62,688 bases of DNA from Chthoniobacteraceae bacterium (lineage in GTDB: Bacteria; Verrucomicrobiota; Verrucomicrobiia; Chthoniobacterales; Chthoniobacteraceae), in assembly GCA_947479475.1 (NCBI GenBank), contig CANJZW010000014.1, forward strand, positions 1 through 62,688, read 5' to 3'. Positions 13,352 to 46,065 of the stretch are shown here, one piece after another. Each line of letters begins with the position of its first letter. Positions within the stretch are counted from its first letter, which is position 1. The notes below the pieces were generated by a model. It worked only from the letters and a program-made list of their open reading frames with translations, was not told the origin of the DNA and did not search any database. The position numbers and the translations under genes were made by a program.

Positions 13352-14635
13352 TTACGAGCCAAACTGGAGTCTCGCGAAGGGAAGGTATTGCTCCCAATCG
13401 TATCTCGTAATGTCGTGTTTGCCCGTGCGGATGTGGTAGCGGATGGTGTCTCCCGTGGGGGCGTTGGGAGCCGGTTGTTCGTTCACTCCATAGCCCTTTT
13501 TGCCGAACAATGTGAAAACAGGTTGCGCGTGGAGTCCGGCCAGGAATTCGCCTTTGGGGTCTGCCCAGCGGTCTTCTTCGGCGCTGGCAATGTACACCGA
13601 ACGCGGTGCGGCAAGAGCGACAAGCATGTGGCTGTCCACCGGGCATGCCGCCTCGTTGTGGGAGTAATTGGAGTACGTTTTGGTGAACCAGTGGGGGAAT
13701 GCCTTCGTGATGACCGCGGTGGTTTCGCCAATGTTACGGCGCATGATTGCGGCGCCGCCCTCGCCCGAGTTGTTCGAAATGACAACGCCAAAACGAGGGT
13801 CTTGGGCCCCTGCCCAAAGCGAGGTCTTTCCGAGTCGCGAATGGCCGACGACGGCGAGTTTTTTGGCATCCACCCCAGCTTCCGTGGTTAGGAAATCGGC
13901 TATACGACTCAATCCCCACGCCCAGGCTCCAATGGCGCCCCAATCTCCCTCTTTCCATTCGGTGCCGGCTCCATCCTTGCTGAGGAACCCGCGCAGGCCT
14001 GTTTTCCAGCCTTCGGCGTGGTCGGGTTCGACGTCTCCGCAGTAATACGTCGCAACGGCAAACCCCTCCGAAACAGCCAGGGCCAACTGCCAGCGATCTT
14101 TCTCAGTGCCTCGCGACTTTTCCGTGGAACGGTTGTCGACCACACCGTTCTCTTTGCCCGGCCGCATCCAGCGTGCGGAGAGGGGAATGTCGGTGTCTGG
14201 GGTGACGGCTTCGTTGCCCCCGAAGCTGGTTCCCACAAAACAGGGCACGGGTTTTTGTGTGTTTTTTGGAAGATGCAGCATGAGCTCAAGTCCCGGCCAA
14301 TGGGGATAATCTGCAAGGGAGATGCGTACGATCTTACGAATCGCTTTACCGTCGAGTGCGTCTGTTTTGACCGAGAGCGTTTCGTAAACAACTTTGCCCC
14401 AGTTTGCCGGAGTTTTCCCAAAAACGTGTTTCTGAAAAAGAGCAAGAACCTGGGGGCGTCTGAGCGCGGTCCACTCTTGGGCTGTGGTGACCGGATTGCC
14501 TGAGTCCGATTTGAGGAGTTCCGGAAGGCTGTAGGGCGGGATGGCTGATTCGTCGTAATTCGCCGGTTTTTGCTGGGAAAAAGCGGCAACGGGAATGAGC
14601 GCGAGGGCGCATCCGAGGGAGGAGAGGTGGCGCAT
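13352..14635 (-). CDS. CE15 glucuronoyl esterase-like alpha/beta hydrolase
   Basis: The protein has 427 residues, starting at MRHLSSLGCALALIPVAAFSQQ, a clear signal peptide. The nucleophile motif GHSRLGKTSLWAGAQD places the serine at about residue 266. It is followed by SNNSGEGGAA and, near the C terminus, by RTGKHDITRYDWEQYL with the probable catalytic histidine at about 407. This arrangement matches bacterial CE15 enzymes, which split ester bonds between glucuronic acid in xylan and lignin alcohols. FVGTSFGGNEAVTPD also fits the family. The longer upstream start at 14740 would add 35 Pro/Arg-rich residues before the signal peptide and is unlikely. It is divergent from dltD. The other option is a related acetyl-xylan-esterase-like hydrolase; true substrate is unproven. 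Confidence 0.85.
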   Translation of the reverse strand: MRHLSSLGCALALIPVAAFSQQKPANYDESAIPPYSLPELLKSDSGNPVTTAQEWTALRRPQVLALFQKHVFGKTPANWGKVVYETLSVKTDALDGKAIRKIVRISLADYPHWPGLELMLHLPKNTQKPVPCFVGTSFGGNEAVTPDTDIPLSARWMRPGKENGVVDNRSTEKSRGTEKDRWQLALAVSEGFAVATYYCGDVEPDHAEGWKTGLRGFLSKDGAGTEWKEGDWGAIGAWAWGLSRIADFLTTEAGVDAKKLAVVGHSRLGKTSLWAGAQDPRFGVVISNNSGEGGAAIMRRNIGETTAVITKAFPHWFTKTYSNYSHNEAACPVDSHMLVALAAPRSVYIASAEEDRWADPKGEFLAGLHAQPVFTLFGKKGYGVNEQPAPNAPTGDTIRYHIRTGKHDITRYDWEQYLPFARLQFGS

Positions 14636-14824
14636 AGGAGGGGGTGGGGAGGTGTGAAGGATTGGGGCAGGAGGGTTAGGAGGCAAGTCCGTCCTGCGGG
14701 TCGGCGGGTCGGAGGAAGGCTTGGCTGCCAGATCGCGCATGGTGCAGGCTGGGAAATGGCCTGCAAGGGATATTGTGGGCCGCTGAAAAAGTGCTACTGT
14801 ACTGGGCCCCTAGCTTTCCAGAAC

Positions 14825-16096
14825 ATGAAAACAGCTCAAACCGTTCCCCCCGGTACGGCGCCTTCCCTGCCTCTTGGTGACGACCGAGTGGGTGGGAGGC
14901 CTCCGTCGCATCTTGTTTCGTTTGTTTTGGCCATGGCGTTGGCGGGGGCTGCGGTTTTTGGGGGATATCATTGGGCGAGGGACAAAGAGGAGCGCTTGCT
15001 CCACAGTGTGGCGCCTGAGTTTTGCGATGCCAAATTGCATGGGGTGGCACTGATTAGGGAGGCGCTTTCGCGTCCGGACACCTTGGTTTTTTTTGGCAGC
15101 TCTGAGTTGATTCCAAACGTGCCGATGAAGGGGGTGGATTTTTTCTCGGGTTCGCCCACTGGGTTTACGATGTTTCCTGTTGGAAAGGCTGGAACCACAG
15201 CCCTTTCAGTGCTGCAAAAACTCGGGTGCGCGGGAGATGAACTTGTTGGAAAAAAAGTGGTGATCTCGCTGTCCCCAAGTTTTTTTCAGTCTGAAGAGGT
15301 GGATGCAAAGTATTTCGAGGGGAATTCCTCCAAGCTGCAGTTGAAGGAGTTTTTTGGAAGCGACCGGTTCACGGATGATCTCAAGCACGACGTGGCTGTC
15401 CAAACTCTGAAATACCCGAGGGTTTTTGAGGGGGATTGGACACTTGGATTTACCCTTCGCTGCACTGCGGAAGGGGGGGCTTGGAACCTGTTTTTGCTCA
15501 AGATTGTGGAGCCGTACGCGGCATTCAATAGGGCCGTGGGAAGGATGCAGGATCATGTGGAGGCGGCTTTCGCCCTCAATGGGGAGCCGGAACTCGCGGC
15601 TATTTCGGCGTTCCGACCGCAGCGGGGGCGTCTTTTGAATTGGGACGAACTGTTCCGGATGGCGGAAATGCAGTCCAAAACGCTGGCCGCGAAATCCAGA
15701 AGGGGGGCGCCTGTGGTGACGCGTGCCAAGGGGTCCTGGGACCGCCAGTTCGTGGCTAAAATGCATAAGGCTCAGGAGTGGAGGGATTTTGAGTTGGTCC
15801 TTCGGCTGTTGAAGGAGGCGGGGGCGCATCCTTTGATCCTTTCCATGCCATTGCATGCAGATGTGCTTGAAGCCCAAGGGGTATCCGGGGCGGCCCGGGT
15901 GGAGTATGGGGCACAGCTCCGGGCGCTGGTGAGTAAATACAACGCCCCGTTGGTTTATTTCAGCGACCATGAGGGCGACCCTGTTTTCTTTGTGGATCAG
16001 AACGACCACATCGGCTCAAAGGGATGGTGGTACTACAACAAAGTGCTGGATGATTTTTACCATGATAGGCTTTCTCCCCCCCAAGTTGTCCCTTAA
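14825..16096 (+). CDS. dltD: DltD, D-alanyl transfer protein
   Basis: A 423-residue membrane-anchored SGNH-like protein. One N-terminal helix (about residues 29-48, HLVSFVLAMALAGAAVFGGY) should anchor it, with the catalytic part outside. VFFGSSELIPNVP carries the nucleophile serine around residue 92. The C-terminal block VDQNDHIGSKGWWYYNKV (H about 395) matches the conserved D/H-GxKGW block of DltD. GKKVVISLSPSFFQ is also typical. In Firmicutes DltD takes D-alanine from the membrane system and puts it on lipoteichoic acid. I chose the start MKTAQTV at 14825: it gives normal family length, whereas the open frame upstream is low-quality sequence overlapping the divergent CE15 gene. It is first in the operon, which is unusual since dltD is normally last. 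Confidence 0.9.
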   Translation: MKTAQTVPPGTAPSLPLGDDRVGGRPPSHLVSFVLAMALAGAAVFGGYHWARDKEERLLHSVAPEFCDAKLHGVALIREALSRPDTLVFFGSSELIPNVPMKGVDFFSGSPTGFTMFPVGKAGTTALSVLQKLGCAGDELVGKKVVISLSPSFFQSEEVDAKYFEGNSSKLQLKEFFGSDRFTDDLKHDVAVQTLKYPRVFEGDWTLGFTLRCTAEGGAWNLFLLKIVEPYAAFNRAVGRMQDHVEAAFALNGEPELAAISAFRPQRGRLLNWDELFRMAEMQSKTLAAKSRRGAPVVTRAKGSWDRQFVAKMHKAQEWRDFELVLRLLKEAGAHPLILSMPLHADVLEAQGVSGAARVEYGAQLRALVSKYNAPLVYFSDHEGDPVFFVDQNDHIGSKGWWYYNKVLDDFYHDRLSPPQVVP

Positions 16097-16120
16097 CCCC
16101 ATCTCTGACCTGATTTTTTC

Positions 16121-16357
16121 ATGAAAGACAAAATTCTCGCCGTATTAGTTGAAGTTGCCGAAACCGAGGAGGTTTTGAAACAACCCGAGCTCGCCCTGTA
16201 CGATCTCCAGATCCTGGACTCCATGAAGACGGTGGAGCTGATCGTGGCTCTGGGGCGTGAACTTGGAGTGGAGATTTCACCCGCAGAGTTTGAACGGGAG
16301 GCTTGGGCCACCCCGGCCAAGTTTGTGGAAGACGTGGAAAAGCGACTCGCCACGTAG
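16121..16357 (+). CDS. dltC: DltC, D-alanyl carrier protein
   Basis: A 78-residue acyl-carrier-type protein, exactly the usual DltC size. The motif LQILDSMKTVELIVAL gives the phosphopantetheine serine at residue 34; DSM-x-TVEL is typical of DltC, where ordinary fatty-acid ACPs have DSL. EREAWATPAKFVEDVEKRL forms the last helices. The carrier is loaded with D-alanine by DltA and passes it to DltB at the membrane. It starts 24 nt after the dltD stop and ends 20 nt before dltX, so the genes are almost surely one transcript. A holo-ACP synthase is not in the window and must be encoded elsewhere. Confidence 0.9.
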   Translation: MKDKILAVLVEVAETEEVLKQPELALYDLQILDSMKTVELIVALGRELGVEISPAEFEREAWATPAKFVEDVEKRLAT

Positions 16358-16377
16358 TGTTTCAACTCGTTGTATTT

Positions 16378-16524
16378 ATGGACTTCGATGTGATGTTTGC
16401 GGGCCATCCCGCGCTCCGGCATGTGGCGCTTTTTCTGTATTACGCAGCCATCGTTTTCGCCCTGATTTTGATGTACGGACGCGGGGATTTTTCCACGCCC
16501 CCCTTTGTTTACCAGGAGTTTTAA
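16378..16524 (+). CDS. dltX: DltX, membrane microprotein of D-alanylation
   Basis: A 48-residue protein with one transmembrane helix (about residues 17-33, ALFLYYAAIVFALILMY) and a C-terminal tail STPPFVYQEF. The ending fits the FxYxxF tail of DltX. In Gram-positive dlt operons DltX is a single-helix microprotein, and its C-terminal tyrosine is believed to carry D-alanine between DltB and DltD. Its place between dltC and dltA, with 20 and 15 nt spacers, supports the call. It is short enough to be missed by routine gene calling. The ATG at 16378 gives the family length; a longer open frame upstream overlaps dltC and is unlikely. Confidence 0.85.
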   Translation: MDFDVMFAGHPALRHVALFLYYAAIVFALILMYGRGDFSTPPFVYQEF

Positions 16525-16539
16525 TCCAGACCCTACTGC

Positions 16540-18033
16540 ATGACCGCCGAGCATCTTCTTGATCGAATCAACCGCTGGGGCTCTGTCTGTCCCGAACGCG
16601 TCGCCGTCTCCAGCGGAGGCCGGAGTCTGACTTGGGGGGAGCTTGTTTCGCAGTCTGACAGGCTTGCCTACTGGCTGGACCGTGAGCTTGGCGTCAAGTC
16701 CGGGCCTGTGGCGATCCACGGACACAAGGAACCAGAGATGCTGGTTGCCTTTCTGGCCGCCGTGAAGTGCGGTCGGGCATACGTTCCGATGGACGCCTCG
16801 ATCCCGCAGGCCCGTGTGGCGAAAATTGTGGAAGGATCTGGGGCGGCGATGGTTCTGAGCCCGGGTCGGGTGGCGGAAGTGCTTTCGGCCCGGCCCTCGG
16901 AGCAAGGCCAAAGCCAAGGCACCGATGGGCTTCGCCGAGTGGAAGCTGTGGATCCCTTTTATATTTTGTTCACCTCAGGCAGCACGGGCGAGCCCAAGGG
17001 GGTGGTGATTACATTGGCAAACCTGACGAGTTTTACGGACTGGCTTCTTGGGGAGCACGCGTTTTCAGAGCAGGGGGAGACGTTCTTAAACCAGGCGCCC
17101 TTTTCGTTTGATTTGTCTGTGATGGACCTCTACGCCAGTCTGTTAACGGGGGGGACTCTCGTCTGTGTGACGAAGGAAGAGTTGGCCAACCTCAAGCTGC
17201 TTTATGAGCGGCTGGCGGCATCCGGGGTGACTTGCTGGGTTTCCACCCCTTCATTTGCACAGATGTGCATGATCGAAAAGGGTTTTCGGGCTGAAATGCT
17301 GCCCAGACTGCGGAGGTTTCTTTTTTGCGGCGAAACACTTGCGCCAGAGACGGCCTCCCAGCTTCTGGATCGTTTTCCGGACGCCGAAGTATGGAACACC
17401 TACGGTCCCACGGAGGCGACGGTTGCGACCACTTCCGTGCGCGTCGACCGGGCGCTGTTGGAGAAGTATTCCCCGCTGCCGGTCGGCTATCAGATGGCCG
17501 GAACGCAGGTTGTGGCGGTGGATGCGGCAGGAGCACCCGTGGCGGAAGGGGAGCGCGGGGAGTTGCTGATTGCAGGTCCCAATGTAAGCCCCGGCTATCT
17601 CAACCGGCCGGATTTGAATGCCAAGGCTTTCACTTGCTATGCAGGAGTTTCTGCCTACCGCACGGGAGACTGGGGCCGTTGCCGGGAGGGGTTGATTTTT
17701 TTCGAGGGGCGGATGGACGGGCAGATCAAAATGAATGGTTACCGGATTGAATTGGGGGACATGGAGGCCAATTTGCGGGCGCTTCCGGAAATCGCCGACG
17801 CGGTTGTTTTGCCTGTGGAAAAACATGGCAAGATCGATTCTCTGGCTGCGTTTGTGGTGCTCGCCGAGGCGATTGCCGGCAGCGAATTTGAGGTCGCCGC
17901 CCGCGTGAAAGCGCGGTTGGGGGAGCGTGTGCCAGCGTACATGGTCCCGCGGAAGTTCTATTTTCTGGAAGCTTTTCCAATGACGTCCAATGGCAAGGCA
18001 GACCGCCGCGCTTTGGCTTCACGGTTGGGCTAG
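16540..18033 (+). CDS. dltA: DltA, D-alanine--carrier protein ligase
   Basis: A 497-residue adenylate-forming enzyme, near the usual DltA length. Motifs in order: ILFTSGSTGEPKGVV (phosphate-binding loop, about residues 144-158), YGPTEATVATT, YRTGDWGRC, GRMDGQIKMNGYRIELGDME (hinge) and SNGKADRRAL with the C-terminal catalytic lysine. VAIHGHKEPEMLVAFLAAVKCGRAYVPMD is characteristic of DltA rather than of general NRPS adenylation domains. It activates D-alanine with ATP in the cytoplasm and loads it on DltC. It sits 15 nt after dltX and 30 nt before dltB. A stand-alone peptide-synthetase adenylation domain is the alternative, but the dlt context makes that unlikely. Confidence 0.93.
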   Translation: MTAEHLLDRINRWGSVCPERVAVSSGGRSLTWGELVSQSDRLAYWLDRELGVKSGPVAIHGHKEPEMLVAFLAAVKCGRAYVPMDASIPQARVAKIVEGSGAAMVLSPGRVAEVLSARPSEQGQSQGTDGLRRVEAVDPFYILFTSGSTGEPKGVVITLANLTSFTDWLLGEHAFSEQGETFLNQAPFSFDLSVMDLYASLLTGGTLVCVTKEELANLKLLYERLAASGVTCWVSTPSFAQMCMIEKGFRAEMLPRLRRFLFCGETLAPETASQLLDRFPDAEVWNTYGPTEATVATTSVRVDRALLEKYSPLPVGYQMAGTQVVAVDAAGAPVAEGERGELLIAGPNVSPGYLNRPDLNAKAFTCYAGVSAYRTGDWGRCREGLIFFEGRMDGQIKMNGYRIELGDMEANLRALPEIADAVVLPVEKHGKIDSLAAFVVLAEAIAGSEFEVAARVKARLGERVPAYMVPRKFYFLEAFPMTSNGKADRRALASRLG

Positions 18034-18063
18034 GCGCTTCCTCTTTAATCCACTGCGCGAGTC

Positions 18064-19674
18064 ATGGTTCCTTTCGGCGATTTCGAATATTTCGGGCTTT
18101 TGCTCTACGTCCTTTTGCCCCTGATCGTCCTTGGGTTGCTAGGGGTCTGCCATAGGGGATGGACGTTGCTGACGATGGCGGTGCTTCTTGTGCTGCAGGC
18201 GAGCGGAACGGTTCCTCTGCGCCCGGACATTCACGTTCGGGAAATTTATATCATCATCGGCTACACCGTGTTTCAGGGGGCCGTTGCCTGGGGGTTCTTG
18301 AAGTACAAAAGCCGCGCCGTCTTCTATAGCGCCGTGGGGCTCTGCCTGGTTCCGTTAATCACCTCCAAGATTCTGCCGAGTCTCTCACCGCATTCCGCCT
18401 TTGGTTTTCTGGGGATTTCGTACATCACGTTCCGGTCTCTCGACGTTCTTTTTTCCATTCAGGACGGGTTGATCAAATCCCTCTCTCCGGCCCCGTATGC
18501 GGCTTTTCTTCTGTTCGTGCCAGCGCTTTCGTCCGGGCCGATCGACAGGTACAGGCGGTTTTTGAAGGACTGGGAGAAGACCCGGGACAGGAAGGAGTTT
18601 CTCGAAGATTTGGATACGGCGCTTCACCGCATTGCCCGTGGATTCCTGTACAAGTTTGTGATCGCGGCGTTGATTAAAACGTACTGGCTGGATCCCTGGG
18701 CAACGGGCCGGAGCGTCGGCGCCCTCTGGATGTACATGTATGCGTATACGTTCTATTTGTTTTTTGATTTTGCGGGGTATAGCGCCTTTGCCATCGGGGT
18801 GGGCCGTTTCTTTGGGATTCGTCTGCCTGAGAATTTCGACCGGCCCTTTTTGTCGAAAAACATCCGGGATTTTTGGAACCGCTGGCACATCTCCCTTTCC
18901 TTTTGGTTCCGGGACCACGTGTACATGCGGTTCCTTCTTGCGGCGGCTAAAGGGAAATGGTTCACGGGAAAACACACCTCTTCCTATTGCGGGTTGTTTT
19001 TGACCTTCGGAATCATGGGTGTGTGGCACGGCCTTTCCCTCCATTACGTTGTATACGGCATTTACCACGCGGCGATTCTCAGCTTTTACGATTCGTTCGC
19101 GCGGTGGAACAAGACGCGTAAACTATTTGGTGAAAGTGCGGCACAGATTTTCGCCAATCGTCTGGCCACGTTTCACGTCATCGCGTTTGGGCTTTTGGTT
19201 TTTTCAGGGCGCCTGACTCCGCCACCCGCTCCCGCGATGGAGAAAATATTGGAAAAAGCGGATGCTCGTGAAGTGCATGGGATTGCGTGGGATCGATCGG
19301 CGCAGAAGAAGGAAATCAAGGTCGACCTGTTCATAGACGACGCCTTTATCGACCGCCGAAGCGCTGACTTTTTCCGCGAGGATCTGCGTGATCGCGGGTT
19401 TGGCGATGGGAAACACGGGTTCCGATTTGACCTGCCTTGGTGGGTGCGCGACGGGCGTCCTCACATCATCGAGGTGCGTGAATCAATCAACTCTGCTCCG
19501 CTAAAGGGCTCGCCGCTTACGGTTGAAGTTGAGCGCAATGAGGAGGAAATTCAGCGCGAGGAGGAAAAGCTGCGCAAGGCAAGGGATGCGGCGGAAGCGG
19601 CTGAGACGGCCCCTCAAACGCCCGCGCCCACCTCGCCACCCTTTCGCGCGCCGTCGCCTGCGGGTGACAAGTAA
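18064..19674 (+). CDS. dltB: DltB, MBOAT D-alanyl transporter with extra C-terminal domain
   Basis: The first ~385 residues are a full-length MBOAT protein with many hydrophobic helices. NIRDFWNRWHISLSFWFRDHVYMRF and GIMGVWHGLSLHYVVYGIYHA (catalytic histidine of WHG) are the family hallmarks, and the core ends with FHVIAFGLLVFSG, where normal DltB proteins end. It should pass D-alanine from DltC across the membrane. Unusually, about 150 more residues follow. Residues ~396-490 form a soluble domain (HGIAWDRS...VDLFIDDAFIDR...FREDLRDRGFGDGKHGFRFDLP...HIIEVRES), resembling beta-sandwich modules attached to some bacterial glycosyltransferases. A short Glu/Lys helix and a Pro/Ala tail end the protein. 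The last 61 bases overlap the convergent PHP gene. Confidence 0.9.
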   Translation: MVPFGDFEYFGLLLYVLLPLIVLGLLGVCHRGWTLLTMAVLLVLQASGTVPLRPDIHVREIYIIIGYTVFQGAVAWGFLKYKSRAVFYSAVGLCLVPLITSKILPSLSPHSAFGFLGISYITFRSLDVLFSIQDGLIKSLSPAPYAAFLLFVPALSSGPIDRYRRFLKDWEKTRDRKEFLEDLDTALHRIARGFLYKFVIAALIKTYWLDPWATGRSVGALWMYMYAYTFYLFFDFAGYSAFAIGVGRFFGIRLPENFDRPFLSKNIRDFWNRWHISLSFWFRDHVYMRFLLAAAKGKWFTGKHTSSYCGLFLTFGIMGVWHGLSLHYVVYGIYHAAILSFYDSFARWNKTRKLFGESAAQIFANRLATFHVIAFGLLVFSGRLTPPPAPAMEKILEKADAREVHGIAWDRSAQKKEIKVDLFIDDAFIDRRSADFFREDLRDRGFGDGKHGFRFDLPWWVRDGRPHIIEVRESINSAPLKGSPLTVEVERNEEEIQREEEKLRKARDAAEAAETAPQTPAPTSPPFRAPSPAGDK

Positions 19675-32866: not shown

Positions 32867-34723
32867 TTACAACGCGGTGCTGGGAGGAATGCGAGGGATG
32901 GAGGCAAGCAGGCGGAGGATGATTTTATCCGCGTCGATTCCTTCGGACTCTGCATTAAAGGTGGGCACGATTCTGTGGCGCAGGACAGGCAGTGCAAGCG
33001 CTTCGATGTCTTCCACGCTGACGTGCAAACGGCCTTGCAAAATGGCGCGCACCTTTGCTCCGGTCACGAGACACTGGCAGGCGCGGGGGCCAGCTCCCCA
33101 CGCGATAAGGTCGCGCACGAAGGCGGGTGAATCGGGTTCGTCTGGCCGGGTGCTGCGCACGAGGTTGAGTACGAAGTCCATTACGTGCGCCGGAACCGGA
33201 ACACGCCTCGCCGTTTTCTGGCATTCGATAATTTGGGGGCCATTGATGACGGCCTGTACGTCCGCCTGATAATCTCCGGTCGTGCGTTCGATGACGAGGC
33301 GTTCGGATTCGCGGTCTGGATAGCCGACTCGAATGTGAAAGAGAAACCGGTCTTTTTGAGCCTCTGGCAGCGGGTAGGTGCCCTCCTGTTCGATGGGATT
33401 CTGTGTCGCTAGGACGAAGAAGGGTTGCTCCAGTTTCACGGTGTGCCCTCCGGCAGTGACCGAGTGTTCCTGCATCGCTTCCAGCAGCGCCGCCTGTGTT
33501 TTGGCCGGGGTGCGGTTGATTTCGTCCGCAAGGAGCATCTGGGTGAAAATCGGGCCCTTTTGGAAGACGAGGCTGCGCCGGCCCGTGGCGGGGTCTTCTT
33601 GGAGGATATCGGTGCCAGTGACGTCGGCGGGCATCAAGTCCGGAGTGAATTGAATGCGCCGGAAGGCGAGCTGCATGGTCTGGGAGAGGCAACGGATGAC
33701 TGCGGTCTTGGCCAGCCCGGGAACTCCCTCCAGCAGGCAATGACCGCCGGCGAGCACGGCGATGAGCAACTGCTCGATGACTTCTTCCTGGCCCACGATG
33801 AGTTTGGCGATTTCCGTGCGAATTGCGTGGTAGGTGGCCACGAGGAACTCCACACGTGCCGCGTCGTCGGTGGGCAGGGCAGTCTCAGAGCGTGCGAATT
33901 GGGTTTCGGGAGGAGTCTGGAGTTCCGAGGGGGCGGAGATCGCCTCGGTGGAGCGCATCCGATAAAAGGTGGAGCGGTGTTTTCTCCAGGATCGGGCCCA
34001 TTCTTCGCCCGAGCGTTTGGTAAGCTGGCTTTCAAGTTGGGCTGGGTCCTGAATGTCGAAGTAGTGCAGGAGGTGTTCGGGGGCCGCATGAAAGATGAGT
34101 TGCCCTTCGTGGAGGACAATCAGGGAGTCTGGCATGCTGAGGTCCCGAAGCGTGTCCGGTTTGAACAAGACGGTACGGCCCCTCGCGCTGGTGGCCTTGA
34201 GGAGGGTGAGAAAGGCGGTTTCTTCCGAGGGGTCAAGATGGCTTGTCAGATCGCCGCATAGGATGAGCTCCGGATCATGGAGGAGCGCTTGGGCAAGGGA
34301 GAGACGCGCCTTGAGGAGGCCGGAGAGGGCGCCTAGTTTATGGTCCGCAAAAGCCGTAAGTTGAGTTTCATTCAGGACCCGCTCGATGGGGGCGGCTGAA
34401 TCCGTGGAAGGTCCAGCGGACCGGAGGTGCTCCCTGAGTTCAAGGTTGGGGTCGAGGTCCGGTTGGCTTTGGGCGAATCGGATGGGGCCGGGCGATTGTT
34501 TTTGGGAGGCGCCCACTTCGAGACCCTTCCAGAGAATGTTGCCGATATAAGCATTGCCGGTTCCGGCGACGGCTTGGAGCAATTCGTCCACACCGCTTTC
34601 GGGGCCGCCCCAGAGCGCGACGCAGCGCTCGCTGGGAGCGAGTCTCAGGCTGATTCTATGGAGGGGCGGAAGACCGTCGCGGTCCGCTTTAGGGAGGAGG
34701 GAAATGTCCTGTAATTCCAGCAC
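32867..34723 (-). CDS. Fusion of a degenerate ABC-ATPase domain and a MoxR AAA+ ATPase
   Basis: A 618-residue two-part protein. Residues ~1-225 follow the ABC nucleotide-binding fold from end to end: Walker A place [12 protein letters not shown] (38-49) without lysine, signature [17 protein letters not shown] (132-148), Walker B place [13 protein letters not shown] (153-165) lacking both the Walker B Asp and the catalytic Glu, and the H-loop place VLFKPD without histidine. It therefore probably cannot hydrolyse ATP. Residues ~285-618 are an intact Mox[11 protein letters not shown] (332-341), [23 protein letters not shown] and [26 protein letters not shown]. It is first gene of the six-gene bat-type operon. 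The MoxR part should remodel partner proteins with DUF58/BatA; the N-terminal domain may recruit clients. Confidence 0.85.
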
Positions 34724-38802: not shown

Positions 38803-39671
38803 TCGGAAAGTTTGGAGCGTTCGGGTCCGGTTGGTGCGAGTTCGGCGTTGTTGACCCGGATGCCGCCTGAGATGACGAGTTTGCCATCGGGGTTTCGTTG
38901 GAGGGAGGGGCGTCCGGCCCTGGGGGTTTTGGAGCGGTAAACCGCCTGTCCCGACTGGCCTGAGGAGACGTCGATTTGGGTGAGCATATAGGATTCGTCG
39001 TCCGCCGCATGGAGAACGTAGAGGTTGTTATCCCGGTCGATCTGGGCCTGGGGTTGCATGGCTGACAACATGCGGCCAAGGAGGTAAGGGGGGTAGCGCC
39101 AGCCCGCGTCTTTGCCTTCGAGCTTGGCGTACAGGAAGATTCCTTCTTTGCGCTGGAGTTGAATGAGGGAAAAAGTGCGGGTGTCGCCCCCCGCCTGTTT
39201 GCCTTCGGGGACGCCGACGGTGGTGCTCCACGTGGTTTTCCCCGGATCCGTGTTGATGTAAACTGGCGCTGTGACGATTTGATTGCGGCCCTGGCCCATG
39301 CTAAGGCTGGCCTTGATCCGGTACTGGCCCGGAAGATTCATTTCGTAAACGTCGGTGACGTCGACGGTTCGGGAGATAGTTTCCCCTGCCTTGATTGAAA
39401 GGGGAGGAAACTGGGGCCCGTTCTTGCGAGGGATGGGTGTTTCCCCTCTGACGGCGGAGACTTGGATCTGGCACCAGGGCACGTCCTTGGATTCTTCTCC
39501 TAGGATGAGGTCTCGGCCGGCCATGTTGGTGAGGCGCAGGGTTGCAACGGCGTGTTCATCCACGAGGAAGGTGGTGCGTTGGAAGACGAGTTCGGCGTTG
39601 ATTTGCGCGTGGACTGAGTGTGGTAGCCAGAGACAGCCTAGGACGATCAGGAAGAGGACGCGCAGGTTCAT
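38784..39671 (-). CDS. Exported protein of unknown function, last gene of coupled operon
   Basis: A 295-residue protein with a signal peptide (LRVLFLIVLGCLWLPHSVHAQ). The first ~140 residues read as a beta-sandwich: INAELVFQRTTFLVDEHAVATLRLTNMAGRDL ... ISRTVDVTDVYEMNLPGQYRIKASLSM, similar in rhythm to domains that bind partners in the periplasm. The second half (SLIQLQRKEGIFLYAKLEGKD, AQIDRDNNLYVLHAADDESYMLTQIDVSSGQSGQ) looks like a few propeller-type blades. I do not recognise a family. Its start overlaps the stop of the receiver/kinase-like/FGE-like gene by four bases, so translation is coupled and a common job is likely. A hairpin lies over its stop codon. Confidence 0.7.
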   Translation of the reverse strand: MNLRVLFLIVLGCLWLPHSVHAQINAELVFQRTTFLVDEHAVATLRLTNMAGRDLILGEESKDVPWCQIQVSAVRGETPIPRKNGPQFPPLSIKAGETISRTVDVTDVYEMNLPGQYRIKASLSMGQGRNQIVTAPVYINTDPGKTTWSTTVGVPEGKQAGGDTRTFSLIQLQRKEGIFLYAKLEGKDAGWRYPPYLLGRMLSAMQPQAQIDRDNNLYVLHAADDESYMLTQIDVSSGQSGQAVYRSKTPRAGRPSLQRNPDGKLVISGGIRVNNAELAPTGPERSKLSDRPAGF

Positions 39672-41782
39672 GGGCTGGGTTGAGCGGGAGGGCTGGCGGT
39701 GCGGAAGCCCAGGTTGATGGAGCGAGATTCTGAAGGAATCGCCGAGGCCGCGTCGAGGGTGAGCAGCGGCGCGTTAAAATGGCCGCCCTTGACAACGACC
39801 TTGCCGTCGCGCCGCGTCGCCGTCCATTCCGAAACATTGCCTGAAAGCCCTTTGACTCCAAACACGCTTGGATCGTTGAGGCTGTCCACGTTCTTCGGGC
39901 TGTTTGTTTCCCCCGGTTTGAGGAGGTATTCGGGCCGGCTGACATTGGAGCGTTCCGGTTCGGGTTCGTCGCCCCAAGGAAAGAGGAGGCCTCTGGGGCC
40001 CCGGCCGGCAGCCTCCCATTGCTCCTCGGTGGGCAAGACGCGCCCCGCCCACGCCGCGAAGGCGAGGGCGTCCCACCAGGTGACATTAGAGACGGGAAGG
40101 TTCCAGCGGGGATCGGCCTTGGTTTTTTCGGGACGAAATTTTTCCGGAAACATCTCCGGCCAGGAGGGGGGAACGTGGGAATGATGCGGGGGCTGCTCTG
40201 GATGATCAAACCGGGCGGCCTCCTTGGGGTGGGTACGCACCCAGTCTATAAATTTAAAATATTGGCGGTTTGTGACTTCCGTGGAGTCTATGGCGAAAGC
40301 TTCCAGAGAGATGCGGCGTCCGGTGCCTAGGGGATAGAGGTCCTTTGGGATGTTGATCTGCGAGGGGGTGAGCGGCTCTGGAGCCATGAGATAAAAAAAT
40401 CCGGCGAGGGCGCCCGCGGCAAGAAGGGCGGCGAGGGACAGGGCGGCGAGCAACCGCTTTTTTGGGTGCTTCGTGGCGGGCGGTGGCGACCAAGGCGTCT
40501 TGGGCGCGGGGGCCGAAGCGTGCGAAGGTGCGGCTGGGGCTGCCGAGGGGGAGGGGTTGTTGTTGTTGGTTTTCTCCGGAGCCAGGCCTTTCAAGAGCTC
40601 TTCCCAGCCAGCCAAACGGTGTGGATGCCCCCGGGCGGTGCGCTCCAGGAGGGTGCGCAGTTCTGGAGTGGCTTCCGGGGGCAGAAGTTTGAGCAGGCAT
40701 CCGCCAAAAAGGGAAAGGTCTGCGGCGGTGTCGGTTGCCGGATGGAGGCCCCCGAGTGCGATGTTTTGGATGCGGATCGTGCCATCGAGTTGCAGCAGGA
40801 CATCGGCGGGCTGGAGCGGCAGCGTGGGCACTTTGGCTTTGCGCAGGTAGAGGAGGCACTCGGCCACCGTTCTGACGGTGTCTGTGAGGGCGGCGACGCT
40901 GATTGAAAAGCCCTTTAGGAGCAGGCTTTCAATGGACTCTGCGGTGATTCTTTCGATCGCATAAAAGGTGCGGTCTTCCAGTTCACCCGCTTCATAGACG
41001 GCGAGGATCGAGTCGTTTTGAATTTGGGCCTTGGCTCTGGCGTCTGCGAGAAAAGCTTCTTTAAGCTCTGGATTTGCGGCCTTTTCAGGATCCATCACGA
41101 CAAGATAAACTTGGCGGCTCAGGGTGGTGTGTAATGCCGAAAAACGCTGGCCTAGAGGGTGATGGCCCTCCTCCCCAAAAACATGGTAGGGCCCAAGACT
41201 GGCGCCGGGGTAGAGCGCCGCGTACGTGCGCGGGGGCGCGAGGGGTTCGTTGGCAGGCATCTCCCCTCTGGACGCACGCGGCTGGGGAAGTGCTTCTGGA
41301 GTAGATTGGCGAGGAGAGAGAGGCTGCGGAGAGGGGGGCTGGATGCTGGGCGGCGTCCGTTCCGCCCTTGGCTCGGGGGTTGGAGCTGGGGGCGCGAGCG
41401 TCGGATTGAGCGAATTTGCGGGCAGCGCCTTGGCGGGGCGCGCGTGTTGGAGTGCGGAAAGCACCGACTCGGGGTTTACGGGAATGGGCAGTACGGGAGT
41501 CTGCCTGATAGCATCCGAATAGGCGCCGAGGTTGTGGCGGGTCAAAAAGAGGGTGAGCAGGGAGGGGTAACGCGTCTGGAGCTCGTCCCGAACAGAGAAT
41601 CCATCCACCCCAGGGAGGAACACTTCCGTGATGAGCACATCCACTCCGCCCAGCAGATTGACGTGTTGAATCGCCGTCGTTCCGTCGGGCGCGCAGTACA
41701 ATTCCATTCCCTGAATGGAAAGCAGGGTGGACTGAAGCGCTGGCAGCAGGTCGGCAACTGGGTCGACTAGGAGGACTCTCAT
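39668..41782 (-). CDS. Receiver-like + kinase-like + FGE-like fusion, all apparently catalytically dead
   Basis: A 704-residue membrane protein. Residues 1-113 are a response-regulator receiver fold (MRVLLVDPVADLL ... VDVLITEVFLPGVDGF) with Glu53 where the phosphorylated Asp should be; the usual PKPF lysine is replaced in PIPV. A Pro-rich linker (115-185) follows. Residues ~195-400 track a Ser/Thr kinase, but the beta-3 lysine (VYLVVMDPE), HRDLK...N (LPLQPADVLL) and DFG (IQNIALGG) are lost. One helix (443-465, LLAALSLAALLAAGALAGFFYL) leads to an FGE-sulfatase (SUMF1) domain with STEVTNRQYFKFIDW, VTWWDALAFAAWAGRVLPTEEQWEAA, LSGNVSEW and NLGFRTA, which has no cysteine at all. I infer a scaffold or sensor. 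Both neighbours overlap it by ATGA. Confidence 0.82.
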   Translation of the reverse strand: MRVLLVDPVADLLPALQSTLLSIQGMELYCAPDGTTAIQHVNLLGGVDVLITEVFLPGVDGFSVRDELQTRYPSLLTLFLTRHNLGAYSDAIRQTPVLPIPVNPESVLSALQHARPAKALPANSLNPTLAPPAPTPEPRAERTPPSIQPPSPQPLSPRQSTPEALPQPRASRGEMPANEPLAPPRTYAALYPGASLGPYHVFGEEGHHPLGQRFSALHTTLSRQVYLVVMDPEKAANPELKEAFLADARAKAQIQNDSILAVYEAGELEDRTFYAIERITAESIESLLLKGFSISVAALTDTVRTVAECLLYLRKAKVPTLPLQPADVLLQLDGTIRIQNIALGGLHPATDTAADLSLFGGCLLKLLPPEATPELRTLLERTARGHPHRLAGWEELLKGLAPEKTNNNNPSPSAAPAAPSHASAPAPKTPWSPPPATKHPKKRLLAALSLAALLAAGALAGFFYLMAPEPLTPSQINIPKDLYPLGTGRRISLEAFAIDSTEVTNRQYFKFIDWVRTHPKEAARFDHPEQPPHHSHVPPSWPEMFPEKFRPEKTKADPRWNLPVSNVTWWDALAFAAWAGRVLPTEEQWEAAGRGPRGLLFPWGDEPEPERSNVSRPEYLLKPGETNSPKNVDSLNDPSVFGVKGLSGNVSEWTATRRDGKVVVKGGHFNAPLLTLDAASAIPSESRSINLGFRTASPPAQPSP

Positions 41783-42762
41783 GGGGCGGCGTCTCTGGCA
41801 AGAAGCCTGGGCGGCGGGTATTGCTGGCCCAGACGGACAGGGTCCGCCCGCGTGTCCAGAAGCTTGTCCTTGTAGTAAAGGCTCGCAACGTAACCGAAGT
41901 AACGGCGGTCTTCCCCCATGGAGCGGCTCTGGGTCTGGCGGTAGTCTACCTCCAGGGTTTCAATCGGTTCGTCCCGCCAGTCGACGGGAGCGGTGGCCCA
42001 TTTCCAACGGATCGCTGCGTTGGTGCGCTCCAGGGTGCGGCCGTTGAGTTGGTCGTAAAACTGGACTTGCACCGAGACGTCGCGCACCTCGATGGTGTGC
42101 GTTTCGCCGCGCAGGACTGGGATTTCCAGAGTAAAGCTGCGGCGCCCCGGGGAACTTCCTTGTAGATCTTTGAGGGCCAGCTTGGAGAAGCGAAGGGCCG
42201 CTCCTTTGAGCGCGTTGTTGACCTCCGCCTTGGACTCCTCTGCCGTTCTTTGTTGAAGCAGGTTCAATTTCGCATCCGCCGCGGAGTAATAAATCCCTGC
42301 CGAGAGGCCGAATTGATGCACTCGCTCCCAGAGTTTGAGGGCGCGTGCAGGCGCGGAACATTTCTCCAGCTGTACGGCGACTTCTGCAAGTGCGGCCGCC
42401 TGCTGGGGTACCTGCGCTTCGGCTTCCTCCAGAAGCTTGATGGCAGAGTCTGTGTCGCCCTTGGCGGCGGCCGCTCTGGATTCCTCCACAAGTTCCTGCC
42501 ATCCGGCGCGGAGAGAGGGGGCTCCCAGACGGGGCTGGATCAGAAGGCTTTCACCGGTGGAAAACTCGGGTTCCACACCGCGGTCGATGTTGGCAGTGGA
42601 ACGCCTAACCTTTCTTTGGGCCGGCGTTGGGACAAGGGAAAGCAGCGCGAGCTCCATCCCGAACGCCAGCAAGAGCACCCCCAAGGCGCAGGGAAGCGTT
42701 CGTCCGCGCGGGACGCGCAGCCAGGCGGGAAGCTTCAAGTTTAGAACATCGGCGGGGTGCAT
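41779..42762 (-). CDS. Membrane-anchored TPR-like protein of unknown function
   Basis: A 327-residue protein, first in the three-gene operon. A helix at about residues 25-45 (LPCALGVLLLAFGMELALLSLV) should anchor it. Residues ~85-190 look like two or three helical TPR-type repeats (ELVEESRAAAAKGDTDSAIKLLEEAEAQVPQQAAALAEVAVQLEKCSAPARALKLWERVHQFG). The last ~120 residues are beta-rich: FTLEIPVLRGETHTIEVRDVSVQVQFYDQLNGRTLERTNA ... YFGYVASLYYKDKLLDTRADP. I do not recognise a named family. The protein's stop overlaps the following start (ATGA), coupling it to the pseudo-kinase fusion; an assembly role is plausible but unproven. Confidence 0.7.
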   Translation of the reverse strand: MHPADVLNLKLPAWLRVPRGRTLPCALGVLLLAFGMELALLSLVPTPAQRKVRRSTANIDRGVEPEFSTGESLLIQPRLGAPSLRAGWQELVEESRAAAAKGDTDSAIKLLEEAEAQVPQQAAALAEVAVQLEKCSAPARALKLWERVHQFGLSAGIYYSAADAKLNLLQQRTAEESKAEVNNALKGAALRFSKLALKDLQGSSPGRRSFTLEIPVLRGETHTIEVRDVSVQVQFYDQLNGRTLERTNAAIRWKWATAPVDWRDEPIETLEVDYRQTQSRSMGEDRRYFGYVASLYYKDKLLDTRADPVRLGQQYPPPRLLARDAAP

Positions 42763-43230: not shown

Positions 43231-46065
43231 ATGAATTTTAAGAAGTTTGTTAGAAAGCTAAATTCCCATCTCAGGCAGGCGAGGAAATACCGCACTCCTG
43301 TCATTGTTCTCATTTCGCTGGCGGTGATCGGCCTTTTTCGGGTGCCCCAAGTGCGAGATTCAGAGGCGCTCAAAAAATTTGAAGGACAGGCGATCGACAA
43401 GCGGTTCCTCATTCGGAACGAAAACGCTCCCCTCAAGCAACATCCGCAAATTGAACTTGTGGGGATTACCACCCAGTCTTTGGACCAGGGGCTTCTTGCC
43501 CCGCTCCTGGAAGAAGCCCAGAACGCCGAGGAGGAGAGAATTTTGAAGGGCAAGCCTGCATCTGCCCCAGCGCCTCAAGCCCCGAAGGCACCCGCACCTG
43601 CACCTGCACCGGCGGTTGAAGCCCCGAAGGCGCCTGCACCTGCCCCGGCGGTTGAAGCCCCGAAGGCGCCTGCACCCGCACCGGCGGTTGAAGCCCCGAA
43701 GGCGCCTGCACCCGCACCGGCGGTTGAAGCCCCGAAGGCGCCTGCACCCGCACCGGCGCCTGAAGCACCGAAGGCCCCTGCACCAGAGGCAGAGCCGTCC
43801 AAGAGTCCGGGATCAGCCTCGGCGTCTGAGCCGATTTTGGGTTCGCTTGAATTGTCTAAAGTTCCACAGGCTCCTGTTTCAGAGGGGGCGACTGCTGAGC
43901 CTGCAGTGGCGAAGTCTGCTGCGACCGGGGATGTGGCCGCGGCGCCGGCGACCCGGAATTACAGCGAGGCCTTGAAGCTGATGGCGAAGGGTTCGTGGCC
44001 CTTCCCTCGGGCCGTCTACTCGTATGCATTGGAGCGGCTGTTTGAACTGGGCGCAAAGACGATCGCCATCGACATTTTGTACGTTTCCGACCGCAAGGAC
44101 GACTCGGATCCGAGGATTCTTGCGGCGATGGACCGGTTGGAGGCCATGCAGCAGGCTTACGGGATTTCGGATGAACTTCTCGAGAAGGTCGAAGCGGAGT
44201 TGGACGAAAACTTTGAGATTGCCCCGGCAATGTTGCTGGCGCTGCAGCGCCTGGAGGCAGCCAAGAGCAAGTTGGGGGCGGCCCCCGAGCTTTTTGCGCG
44301 CATCAAGTCGCTACTGGAGAGGGAGGGTAAAAAAATCCGCGAAGGGGATGAGGTGTTTGCCGAGACTCTGGAGCGGCACCGCGGCAAAATCGTGCTGGCC
44401 TTTTCAAACAACAAAACCCTGGATGATAACGGCAAGGAGACGATTCAGTTCCTACGTCCCAATCCGACGCTCACAAAGGCCCTTGGAGAAGATGGTCTTG
44501 GGTACGCTTTCTTCCAACCAGACGCCGACGCCGTGGTGCGTCGGGTGGACACGACGACTTCCCAGTTCAAAGAAAGCAACAAGGCCTTTTTGCAGACTGG
44601 GCCTGACGACTGGTTGAAGTTCTCCGCGCTGGCAGTGTCAAAGTTTGCCTCGCGCAAAATTGAGCCGCAGCACGAGATCATCAACTATCGCGGGGCGGCT
44701 GGGACCTTTGAAGTTCTGCCGATTGAGGAGCTTTTCAGCGATCGGCTTCTGAAGGAAGATCCCCGTTATCAGGGTGGGAACCGGTTTAAGGACAAGCTGG
44801 TTTTCCTGGGGCCGATTTCAGAGACTTTTCACGACGAACATCGCACCCCGCTGGGCACCCAGCCCGGGGTGGAAATTCACGCGCATTACGCCGGGTCGCT
44901 TTTGGACAATATTCCAATCACCGAGTACCCGAAGGAGAGGGAGATCTGGCTGGTGGTCGGGGCTGTGCTGGTGGCTGCGATCCTGTTGCTCACGTTTGAG
45001 AGCCTGCCCAAGCGCGTCGGGTTTGCTGGCTTTGCGATCGGCGGGTTTGGGTATGCCTCCTACATTCTGTTTAGGGACCATCACCTAATGCTGCCGGTGG
45101 TTTCGCCTTTGATTGCGATCGGATTGGTGGGCGGCATCATCACGGCCTTTGACTTTGCGATCGAACAGTTGGAGAAGGCGCATGTTCGCGGGGTTTTGGA
45201 TAAGTACGTCTCCAGCAACGTTGCCAGCATGGTGATGAATCAGGGGGATTCCTTTGACCAGGCTCTGCGCGGGGAAAACAAGGCCGTGAGTGTTCTTTTC
45301 TCCGACATCCGCGGGTTCACTTCTCTCTCAGAGTCCCGCAGTCCAGAAATGCTGGTGGCCCAGTTGAACGAGTATTTCATGCAGATGGTGGACCGGGTAC
45401 TAGGCCAGGGTGGAACGCTCCAGAAATTCATCGGTGACGCCATCATGGCGGTATGGGGTGATACGCATTCGATGGGAATCAACGTGGACTGTCTAGGGGC
45501 GGTTCGCGCGGCATTGAAGATGCGGGTGGCCTTGCACGAATTAAACCAGGGCTGGGCTACGAATCCAGACCGGGAGGAGCTGCATATCGGCGTGGGGATC
45601 AATCACGGGCACGTGGTGGTAGGTGAGTTGGGGCACCCCCAGCGGATGGAGTTCACGTGTTTGGGTGATGGGGTCAACCTCGCGGCCCGTTTGGAAAGCG
45701 CCACGAAACAGTTCGGCGTGGATATTCTCGTGGCCTCTGAAGCGGAGAAAATCACGCGCGATCAGGTGGTGTATCGGCGCGTGGACCTGGCCGTTTTCAA
45801 AGGCAAGACACAGCCCATTCAGGTGTTTACCCCGCTTGGTGAGGTTGGAATGGATGTGCCGGCCTGGCTTGCAACGTACCACGCGGCTCTCGACCTCTTC
45901 CATGAGCGGAAGTTTACGGAAGCCAAGGGGGCGTTTGCCGCAGTCGATACGGAAATGGGGGGCGACGACTATCTCTGTAAAATGTACCAGAAACGCTGCG
46001 ACCACTATCTGGCGGAGCCGCCCGCAGCGGAGTGGGACGGATCCTGGACGTTGACTGAAAAATAA
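43231..46065 (+). CDS. CHASE2-domain adenylate cyclase with Pro-rich insert
   Basis: A 944-residue membrane cyclase. A first helix (about 22-38) leads to a large extracytoplasmic CHASE2 sensor; its parts are IELVGITTQSLDQ (74-86) and WPFPRAVYSYALERLFELGAKTIAIDILY (256-284), split by a Pro/Ala-rich repeat region from about 111. Another ~85-residue helical insert follows. Three closely spaced helices (about 570-645) precede a class III cyclase domain: VLFSDIRGFTSLSES (metal Asp about 692), QKFIGDAIMAVWG (Lys 732, Asp 736) and FTCLGDGVNLAARLES with the Asn/Arg pair. All catalytic residues seem present and the lysine favours ATP, so cAMP is the expected product. SD-like agagg lies four bases before the ATG. 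A terminator follows the gene. Confidence 0.92.
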   Translation: MNFKKFVRKLNSHLRQARKYRTPVIVLISLAVIGLFRVPQVRDSEALKKFEGQAIDKRFLIRNENAPLKQHPQIELVGITTQSLDQGLLAPLLEEAQNAEEERILKGKPASAPAPQAPKAPAPAPAPAVEAPKAPAPAPAVEAPKAPAPAPAVEAPKAPAPAPAVEAPKAPAPAPAPEAPKAPAPEAEPSKSPGSASASEPILGSLELSKVPQAPVSEGATAEPAVAKSAATGDVAAAPATRNYSEALKLMAKGSWPFPRAVYSYALERLFELGAKTIAIDILYVSDRKDDSDPRILAAMDRLEAMQQAYGISDELLEKVEAELDENFEIAPAMLLALQRLEAAKSKLGAAPELFARIKSLLEREGKKIREGDEVFAETLERHRGKIVLAFSNNKTLDDNGKETIQFLRPNPTLTKALGEDGLGYAFFQPDADAVVRRVDTTTSQFKESNKAFLQTGPDDWLKFSALAVSKFASRKIEPQHEIINYRGAAGTFEVLPIEELFSDRLLKEDPRYQGGNRFKDKLVFLGPISETFHDEHRTPLGTQPGVEIHAHYAGSLLDNIPITEYPKEREIWLVVGAVLVAAILLLTFESLPKRVGFAGFAIGGFGYASYILFRDHHLMLPVVSPLIAIGLVGGIITAFDFAIEQLEKAHVRGVLDKYVSSNVASMVMNQGDSFDQALRGENKAVSVLFSDIRGFTSLSESRSPEMLVAQLNEYFMQMVDRVLGQGGTLQKFIGDAIMAVWGDTHSMGINVDCLGAVRAALKMRVALHELNQGWATNPDREELHIGVGINHGHVVVGELGHPQRMEFTCLGDGVNLAARLESATKQFGVDILVASEAEKITRDQVVYRRVDLAVFKGKTQPIQVFTPLGEVGMDVPAWLATYHAALDLFHERKFTEAKGAFAAVDTEMGGDDYLCKMYQKRCDHYLAEPPAAEWDGSWTLTEK
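43615..43758 (+). repeat. 36-bp coding tandem repeat in the cyclase gene
   Basis: Four in-register 36-bp units begin at 43615, 43651, 43687 and 43723, each encoding VEAPKAPAPAPA; diverged units lie on both sides (about 43565-43614 and 43759-43795). The last two units are nearly identical, so recent copy-number change by whole units, which keeps the frame, is likely. Confidence 0.9.

Follow-up and report, generated by a model that had tools for sequence, protein, structure and literature searches.

What can a protein do when it joins a receiver, a kinase and a formylglycine-generating enzyme (FGE), and all three parts have lost catalytic residues? This question is raised by gene B, an open reading frame (ORF) of 704 aa at 39668-41782 on the minus strand of contig CANJZW010000014.1 (assembly GCA_947479475.1) from a Chthoniobacteraceae bacterium of the Verrucomicrobiota; the window, in what follows, is the whole analysed stretch of 62,688 nt. 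B is ordered as receiver, kinase-like domain, transmembrane (TM) helix and FGE-like domain. Comparison with its relatives indicates that the whole family shares the kinase and FGE losses, and that loss of the receiver in the window's genus was a separate event. We consider it rather probable that B is a one-pass inner-membrane pseudokinase scaffold in a complex with the products of the adjacent genes A and C, and that its receiver is tunable by phosphorylation in some relatives. The features of gene B are as follows.

39668..41782, minus strand: gene B, receiver / pseudokinase / TM / FGE-like protein of 704 aa (ORF, Pfam, family profile)
41438..41782, minus strand: pseudo-receiver, residues 1-115, with D7, P8, E53, T81 and I100 (Pfam, PhoP alignment, orthologs)
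40574..41212, minus strand: pseudokinase, residues 191-403, without beta-3 Lys, HRD Asp and DFG, with a short activation segment (alignments, profile)
41030..41032, minus strand: K251, family-specific basic residue in alpha-C, K in 34/36 and R in 2/36 (family alignment)
40763..40765, minus strand: N340, Asn in place of the DFG Asp, invariant in 36/36 (family alignment)
40388..40456, minus strand: TM helix, about residues 443-465, probably N-inside (hydrophobicity and flanking charge; helix 443-465 in a low-confidence model)
39689..40357, minus strand: Cys-free FGE-like domain, residues 476-698, predicted to lie outside the inner membrane (Pfam, family profile, alignment)

With the single B protein, Pfam placed FGE-sulfatase (PF03781) on residues 490-696 with E 2.2e-32 and 113.2 bits, above the cut-off of 23.3. 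Response_reg (PF00072) on residues 3-84 reached E 6.3e-6 and 26.8 bits, below its cut-off of 30.2, and the Pfam kinase models gave just 13-14 bits. A 16-row profile of the B family, compared with solved structures and read from the best 60 of 214 matches, covered all three parts. The FGE part matched SUMF2 best (2.9e-35) and human FGE at about 1e-32, the kinase part matched StkP (2.6e-24) and PknA (7e-22), and receiver positions 2-116 matched 6tne, deposited as 'Histidine kinase' (3e-16). These matches bear out the statement, made when B was read from its sequence alone (the sequence-only reading), that the folds are still recognisable.

Residues in B were assigned by phmmer alignments to PknA and PhoP together with an ortholog alignment, and every loss of catalytic residues listed in the sequence-only reading for this three-domain fusion was confirmed. 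In the kinase-like part, V228 stands for the beta-3 Lys, D247 for the alpha-C Glu, P322 for the HRD Asp and D327 for the HRD+5 Asn, and DFG has become N340-I-A. With V228, P322 and N340, B lacks the beta-3 Lys, HRD Asp and DFG Asp of an active Ser/Thr kinase, and it has the character of a bacterial Ser/Thr pseudokinase, being a kinase by profile with degraded motifs. Across the family, the HRD Asp is present in none of the 36 kinase rows and Asn occupies the DFG Asp position in all of them. Counts were taken over rows with more than 80 receiver residues, or more than 150 kinase or FGE residues, and the kinase counts and trees exclude G036 and G027, in which an FGE part was seen with neither receiver nor kinase. 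The activation segment is 17 residues long in B, from N340 to a hand-picked alpha-F column (357), and 16-20 residues in 35/36 rows, the remaining row being cut. In an active kinase-FGE protein encoded by the window's genome, the stretch between the DxG Asp and the alpha-F Asp measures 42 residues, with ends not defined as in B. The alignments thus show catalytic residues that are lost, not displaced, with a new conserved basic residue at alpha-C 251; an active kinase or FGE with displaced residues is ruled out by the PknA alignment, the profile matches and the row counts.

Formylglycine-generating enzyme carries its catalytic Cys pair after an RGG motif. In the FGE part of B there is no Cys between residues 478 and 698, and a motif search over the C-terminal stretch found the pair in 0/38 FGE rows, by which B is not an FGE enzyme; single Cys elsewhere in this part are seen in other rows, with 0 to 4 per row over 31 rows. 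The missing cysteine had been taken as a mark of lost activity. Its absence in B stands, but has low weight as such a mark: the window's own genome has 37 PF03781 matches, and a motif search of 30 loci gave 13 segments, just one of which has the Cys pair (L135, a positive control for the motif test), so the missing pair says little. On the whole, residue content supports a non-catalytic protein.

Four K/R precede the TM helix within 12 residues and none follow within 12. Over 38 rows, flanking K/R are more numerous before the helix in 29, equal in 6 and fewer in 3. Since the excess of K/R precedes the helix, an N-inside orientation fits, and the topology suggested earlier, with receiver and kinase inside and FGE outside, agrees with both the helix and its flanking charge.

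The receiver has a different history. In B, D7 is kept, the second acidic position is P8, the phosphorylation site is E53, T81 is kept and the Lys site is I100, so that the five active-site residues (DD, D, T/S, K) read DPETI. Such a domain is not a phosphorylatable receiver; it is a receiver by sequence in which key phosphotransfer residues are gone, which is how bacterial pseudo-receivers are defined. All five residues are intact in 11/33 rows, namely 11/24 outside the window's genus and 0/9 inside it; these counts leave aside G037, which lies at a contig end, and the rows of family code f14, in which no receiver was recognised. On a tree of the kinase and FGE columns, the window's genus falls on one side of a 100/100 branch, among lineages with canonical receivers. 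With outgroup rows included, the tree requires 8 changes for D versus not-D and 5 for E versus not-E at the phosphorylation site, and the outgroup is not cleanly on one side; this state count excludes f14 rows, G007 and G037, and the trees exclude L132 (f8). The joint loss of three activities pictured in the sequence-only reading is therefore not what the family displays: the HRD and DFG Asp and the Cys pair are missing family-wide, whereas the receiver is intact in those 11 of 24 rows. On the question put earlier, whether genomes with the same domain order share the losses, this holds for kinase and FGE but not for the receiver, so three coordinated losses can be rejected.

Named relatives of B are those of Verrucomicrobia bacterium Chth-196 and of a Chthoniobacteraceae metagenome-assembled genome. 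A search of 38 genomes of the genus, family and order, the window's own included, gave a match in 37/38, many of them kinase-only or FGE-only. By reading of the matches, B itself is present in 30/38, full-length in 23 and cut or split by contig ends or frames in 7, and it is absent or unrecognised in 8/38 (G009, G010, G026, G027, G029, G030, G035 and G036); a frame of 441 aa in G035 gave receiver- and kinase-like matches. Across the phylum, the B profile matched in 301/387 genomes, with 2 candidates scored per genome, and among the matches listed, kinase and FGE were spanned jointly only within the class. Relatives thus form a natural series from receiver intact, through receiver dead and no receiver recognised, to B absent.

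Is the degenerate protein still in use? Identity between the window's B and those of G007, G001, G011, G004 and G005 is 46-85% in the three domains and 16-55% in the linkers. Where the synonymous rate (dS) could be estimated, the ratio of nonsynonymous to synonymous rates (dN/dS) was 0.05-0.11 for the receiver, 0.17-0.27 for the pseudokinase, 0.10-0.12 for FGE and 0.34-0.59 for the first linker. Because the domains are conserved with low dN/dS, the degenerate receiver seems to be in use, and the open frame with three domains conserved in the genus rules out recent pseudogene decay.

The neighbours of B offer a further indication of its role. Both lie on the same strand, and 4-base ATGA overlaps are found at both junctions, A/B and B/C.

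41779..42762, minus strand: gene A, N-terminal TM (read from sequence), weak tetratricopeptide repeat (TPR) and conserved C-terminal part, 327 aa
38784..39671, minus strand: gene C, signal-peptide-like start (read from sequence) and weak immunoglobulin (Ig)-like match, 295 aa

The Ig-like match of gene C is weak, being found in 3/14 members with a best E of 0.0079, and the window's own C protein has no Pfam family at E up to 1. The order A-B-C on one strand is kept in the window and in 21/23 long loci of its order, which were chosen as holders of B; the exceptions are L040, which is without A, and L046, which is without C. B is split into two frames in L042. B is modular. In f17, a receiver-kinase-FGE B lies between A and C in 3/3 loci fetched, and in f14 no receiver was recognised in the B of the A-B-C loci L098 and L134; L125 (f24) has A-B. 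Beyond A, B and C, one family recurs nearby in 3 lineage groups and none in more. In profile searches of the 387 phylum genomes, gene C matched in 259 (E up to 1e-5) and gene A in 83 (E up to 1e-8), and in 18/20 hand-picked C-centred stretches neither A nor a kinase-FGE B stood beside C, which suggests that C is a widespread uncharacterised secreted family. These partners went unmentioned in the sequence-only reading; A and C are more readily reconciled with an envelope complex than with a ligand sensor acting by itself.

Two side observations concern this locus. A further small domain, putatively PATAN/DUF4388, occurs in B or in B's place in L045, L125, L132, L062 and L063, and in G036 and G027 it accompanies TM and FGE, receiver and kinase not being seen. 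Divergent from A-B-C in the window lies a CHASE2-adenylate/guanylate cyclase gene (Pfam) at 43231-46065 on the plus strand, with a proline-alanine-rich repeat near its N-terminus; a relative of it adjoins the operon in genus loci L033, L034, L035, L036, L037 and L058, and not in L039.

In the scaffold interpretation, the cytoplasmic receiver and pseudokinase would form a protein-binding module. The TM helix would cross the inner membrane, and the outside FGE-like domain, a putative non-enzymatic member of the SUMF fold, may bind a partner or ligand. B would act in a complex with A, a predicted membrane-anchored TPR protein, and C, a predicted secreted Ig-like protein; the three would bind one another, transmit a state across the membrane and serve the envelope. 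In relatives with a canonical receiver, phosphorylation could set the state of the scaffold, and in the window's genus the pseudo-receiver would leave control either fixed or exerted through protein binding.

Several observations weigh against this interpretation. The phospho-switch is not general, because 13/24 receivers outside the genus also do not have the full set of five residues, one of these 13 solely because its row is cut. AlphaFold2 of whole B with a 3-row alignment gave a low-confidence model (mean pLDDT, the predicted local distance difference test, 43). In this model, the order of helices and strands fits receiver, kinase N-lobe and TM, so structure prediction as called for earlier yielded element order and no usable fold model; with such a score, the folds of B rest on the profile matches and not on the model. 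The second linker with the TM had dN/dS values of 0.27, 0.32 and 1.25, and in most comparisons dS approached or reached saturation, which makes the ratios approximate. B is also not universal, as A and C are adjacent without it in L126, L129 and L130, and L132 has just a receiver and the second small domain between them. In f14, moreover, A and C occur apart: L123 has A-B, L124 A alone, and L096 and L097 C alone (L126 is the A-C locus of this group). Finally, the beta-3 Lys is retained in 12/36 kinase rows, and conservation of K251 and N340 could mean a repurposed pocket instead of a pure scaffold.

This last point opens a rival explanation, in which the pocket would bind a nucleotide or other ligand, or carry a new transferase activity, via K251 and N340. 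Position 251, basic throughout the family, is Ala in paralog L159 and Thr in PknA (assigned by eye), and N340 is invariant; SidJ and SelO are precedents for new activities in the available text of PMC12599244. However, no row among the 36 has Asp at the HRD or DFG position and the window protein itself is without the beta-3 Lys, and we think such a pocket very improbable. Another explanation concerns E53, which would make a constitutively phosphorylated-like receiver that locks B active, as the sequence-only reading had proposed. According to the available text of review PMC12632262, receivers that lack the Asp have Glu in its place more often than any other residue, this Glu can be phosphomimetic, a 'phosphorylated-like' state would involve the T and K of the receiver, and phosphomimic hypotheses were disproved for some pseudo-receivers. 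T81 is kept in B, E occupies the site in 8/9 genus receivers, and the 5 changes for E versus not-E on the tree also speak for this explanation. The f17 and f24 rows have E as well, which bears on the receiver state of the class-wide ancestor. However, the second acidic position is Pro in 8/9 genus receivers and Lys in 1/9, G006 keeps the Asp, and elsewhere in the family the phospho-Asp is replaced by Q, G, N or A. Because the Lys that Glu would bind is gone in 9/9 genus members, the case for a phosphomimic is weak, and we regard it as improbable.

B might instead be a transmembrane ligand sensor, whose FGE-like domain binds a ligand outside and whose pseudokinase and receiver signal to cytoplasmic partners, with A and C as accessories. 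Periplasmic FGE-type domains on one-pass Ser/Thr kinases are common in Planctomycetota (available text of PMC11032199), and the window's own genome encodes a kinase-FGE protein with intact HRD (L159). Yet no output domain is left in B: kinase activity is not expected, and Pfam at E up to 1 matched neither a DNA-binding nor a cyclase part. A and C, the partners that recur beside B, moreover look like envelope proteins, and we hold the sensor to be unlikely. Of the scaffold or ligand-sensing role put forward in the sequence-only reading, the scaffold-type role is thus supported, and a stand-alone sensor fits less, given A and C. A defence kinase, PD-T4-6 (PADLOC best E 1.1e-15), was also rejected, as it matches the kinase part only and the required catalytic residues are absent.

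The scaffold interpretation can be extended, though here we are tentative and think the whole more doubtful than its core. A-B-C may be an unrecognised envelope machine of one Verrucomicrobiota class, in which a pseudokinase scaffold is tuned by its fused receiver, K251 and N340 are kept for a new ligand, and the receiver was later cut off from phosphorylation in several lineages.

Elsewhere in the window, one ORF at 32867-34723 on the minus strand has two matches, to an ABC transporter ATPase over residues 21-156 and to MoxR-type AAA_3 over 328-462, and DUF58 and BatA/VWA genes adjoin it. DltD-like, AMP-binding and MBOAT genes are consecutive at 14570-19674 on the plus strand.

Among known systems, the nearest working analogue of B would be EssB/YukC, a pseudokinase that spans the membrane, has degraded versions of all three motifs and of the activation loop, and is a scaffold of type VII secretion (T7SSb; available text of PMC12599244). 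As judged from the sequence of B, the two are alike in a cytoplasmic degraded pseudokinase, a transmembrane segment and a shortened activation segment, whereas that text ascribes neither a receiver nor an FGE-like domain to EssB. No type VII secretion family was found by Pfam among 21 window proteins, and the only neighbours recurring in more than 3 lineage groups are A and C. B is not a member of EssB/YukC, because of its other domains and the lack of type VII families among these proteins. The parent type of B is likely a kinase-FGE protein of the Chlamydia/Planctomycetota kind. Ser/Thr kinase-FGE (DUF323/NirV) proteins occur in both groups (available text of PMC1262709 and PMC11032199), and those of Planctomycetota are mostly one-pass with a periplasmic FGE-type domain (PMC11032199, same text). 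Those proteins are described as kinases, whereas catalysis is lost in 36/36 rows of the B family and an N-terminal receiver has been added.

For the outside domain, SUMF2 and PorK/GldK share the FGE-type fold and are the best and further profile matches among solved structures. SUMF2, which is presumably pFGE, stands alone as a protein. PorK/GldK is named as a ring lipoprotein of the type IX secretion system (T9SS), whereas B carries this domain on the outside of a membrane protein that also has a receiver and a pseudokinase. pFGE itself is a non-functional counterpart of FGE (available text of PMC1262709).

The MviN pseudokinase is attached to a MurJ-type membrane protein and acts through FhaA; the Pfam scan of 21 window proteins gave no FHA match. 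Listed as ActPs3, it resembles B as a bacterial Ser/Thr pseudokinase with all three motifs changed (available text of PMC12599244, Table 1). No description of a receiver-pseudokinase-TM-FGE architecture was found in searches of open-licence literature, where nothing relevant was found on Akkermansia phenotypes either, and a 2025 review on the families of bacterial pseudokinases (PMC12599244) does not, in its main text, mention FGE, formylglycine, receiver, sulfatase or Verrucomicrob. Bacterial pseudo-receivers, in the available text of PMC12632262, are like that of B in being receivers by sequence with Glu at the D site, and differ in that the domain of B is fused to a pseudokinase, a TM helix and an FGE-like domain. 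A two-component receiver, a Ser/Thr pseudokinase and an FGE-like domain across the membrane are thus united in one protein of a conserved operon, and the natural series of its relatives makes testable how pseudo-receivers and bacterial pseudokinases act without phosphotransfer.

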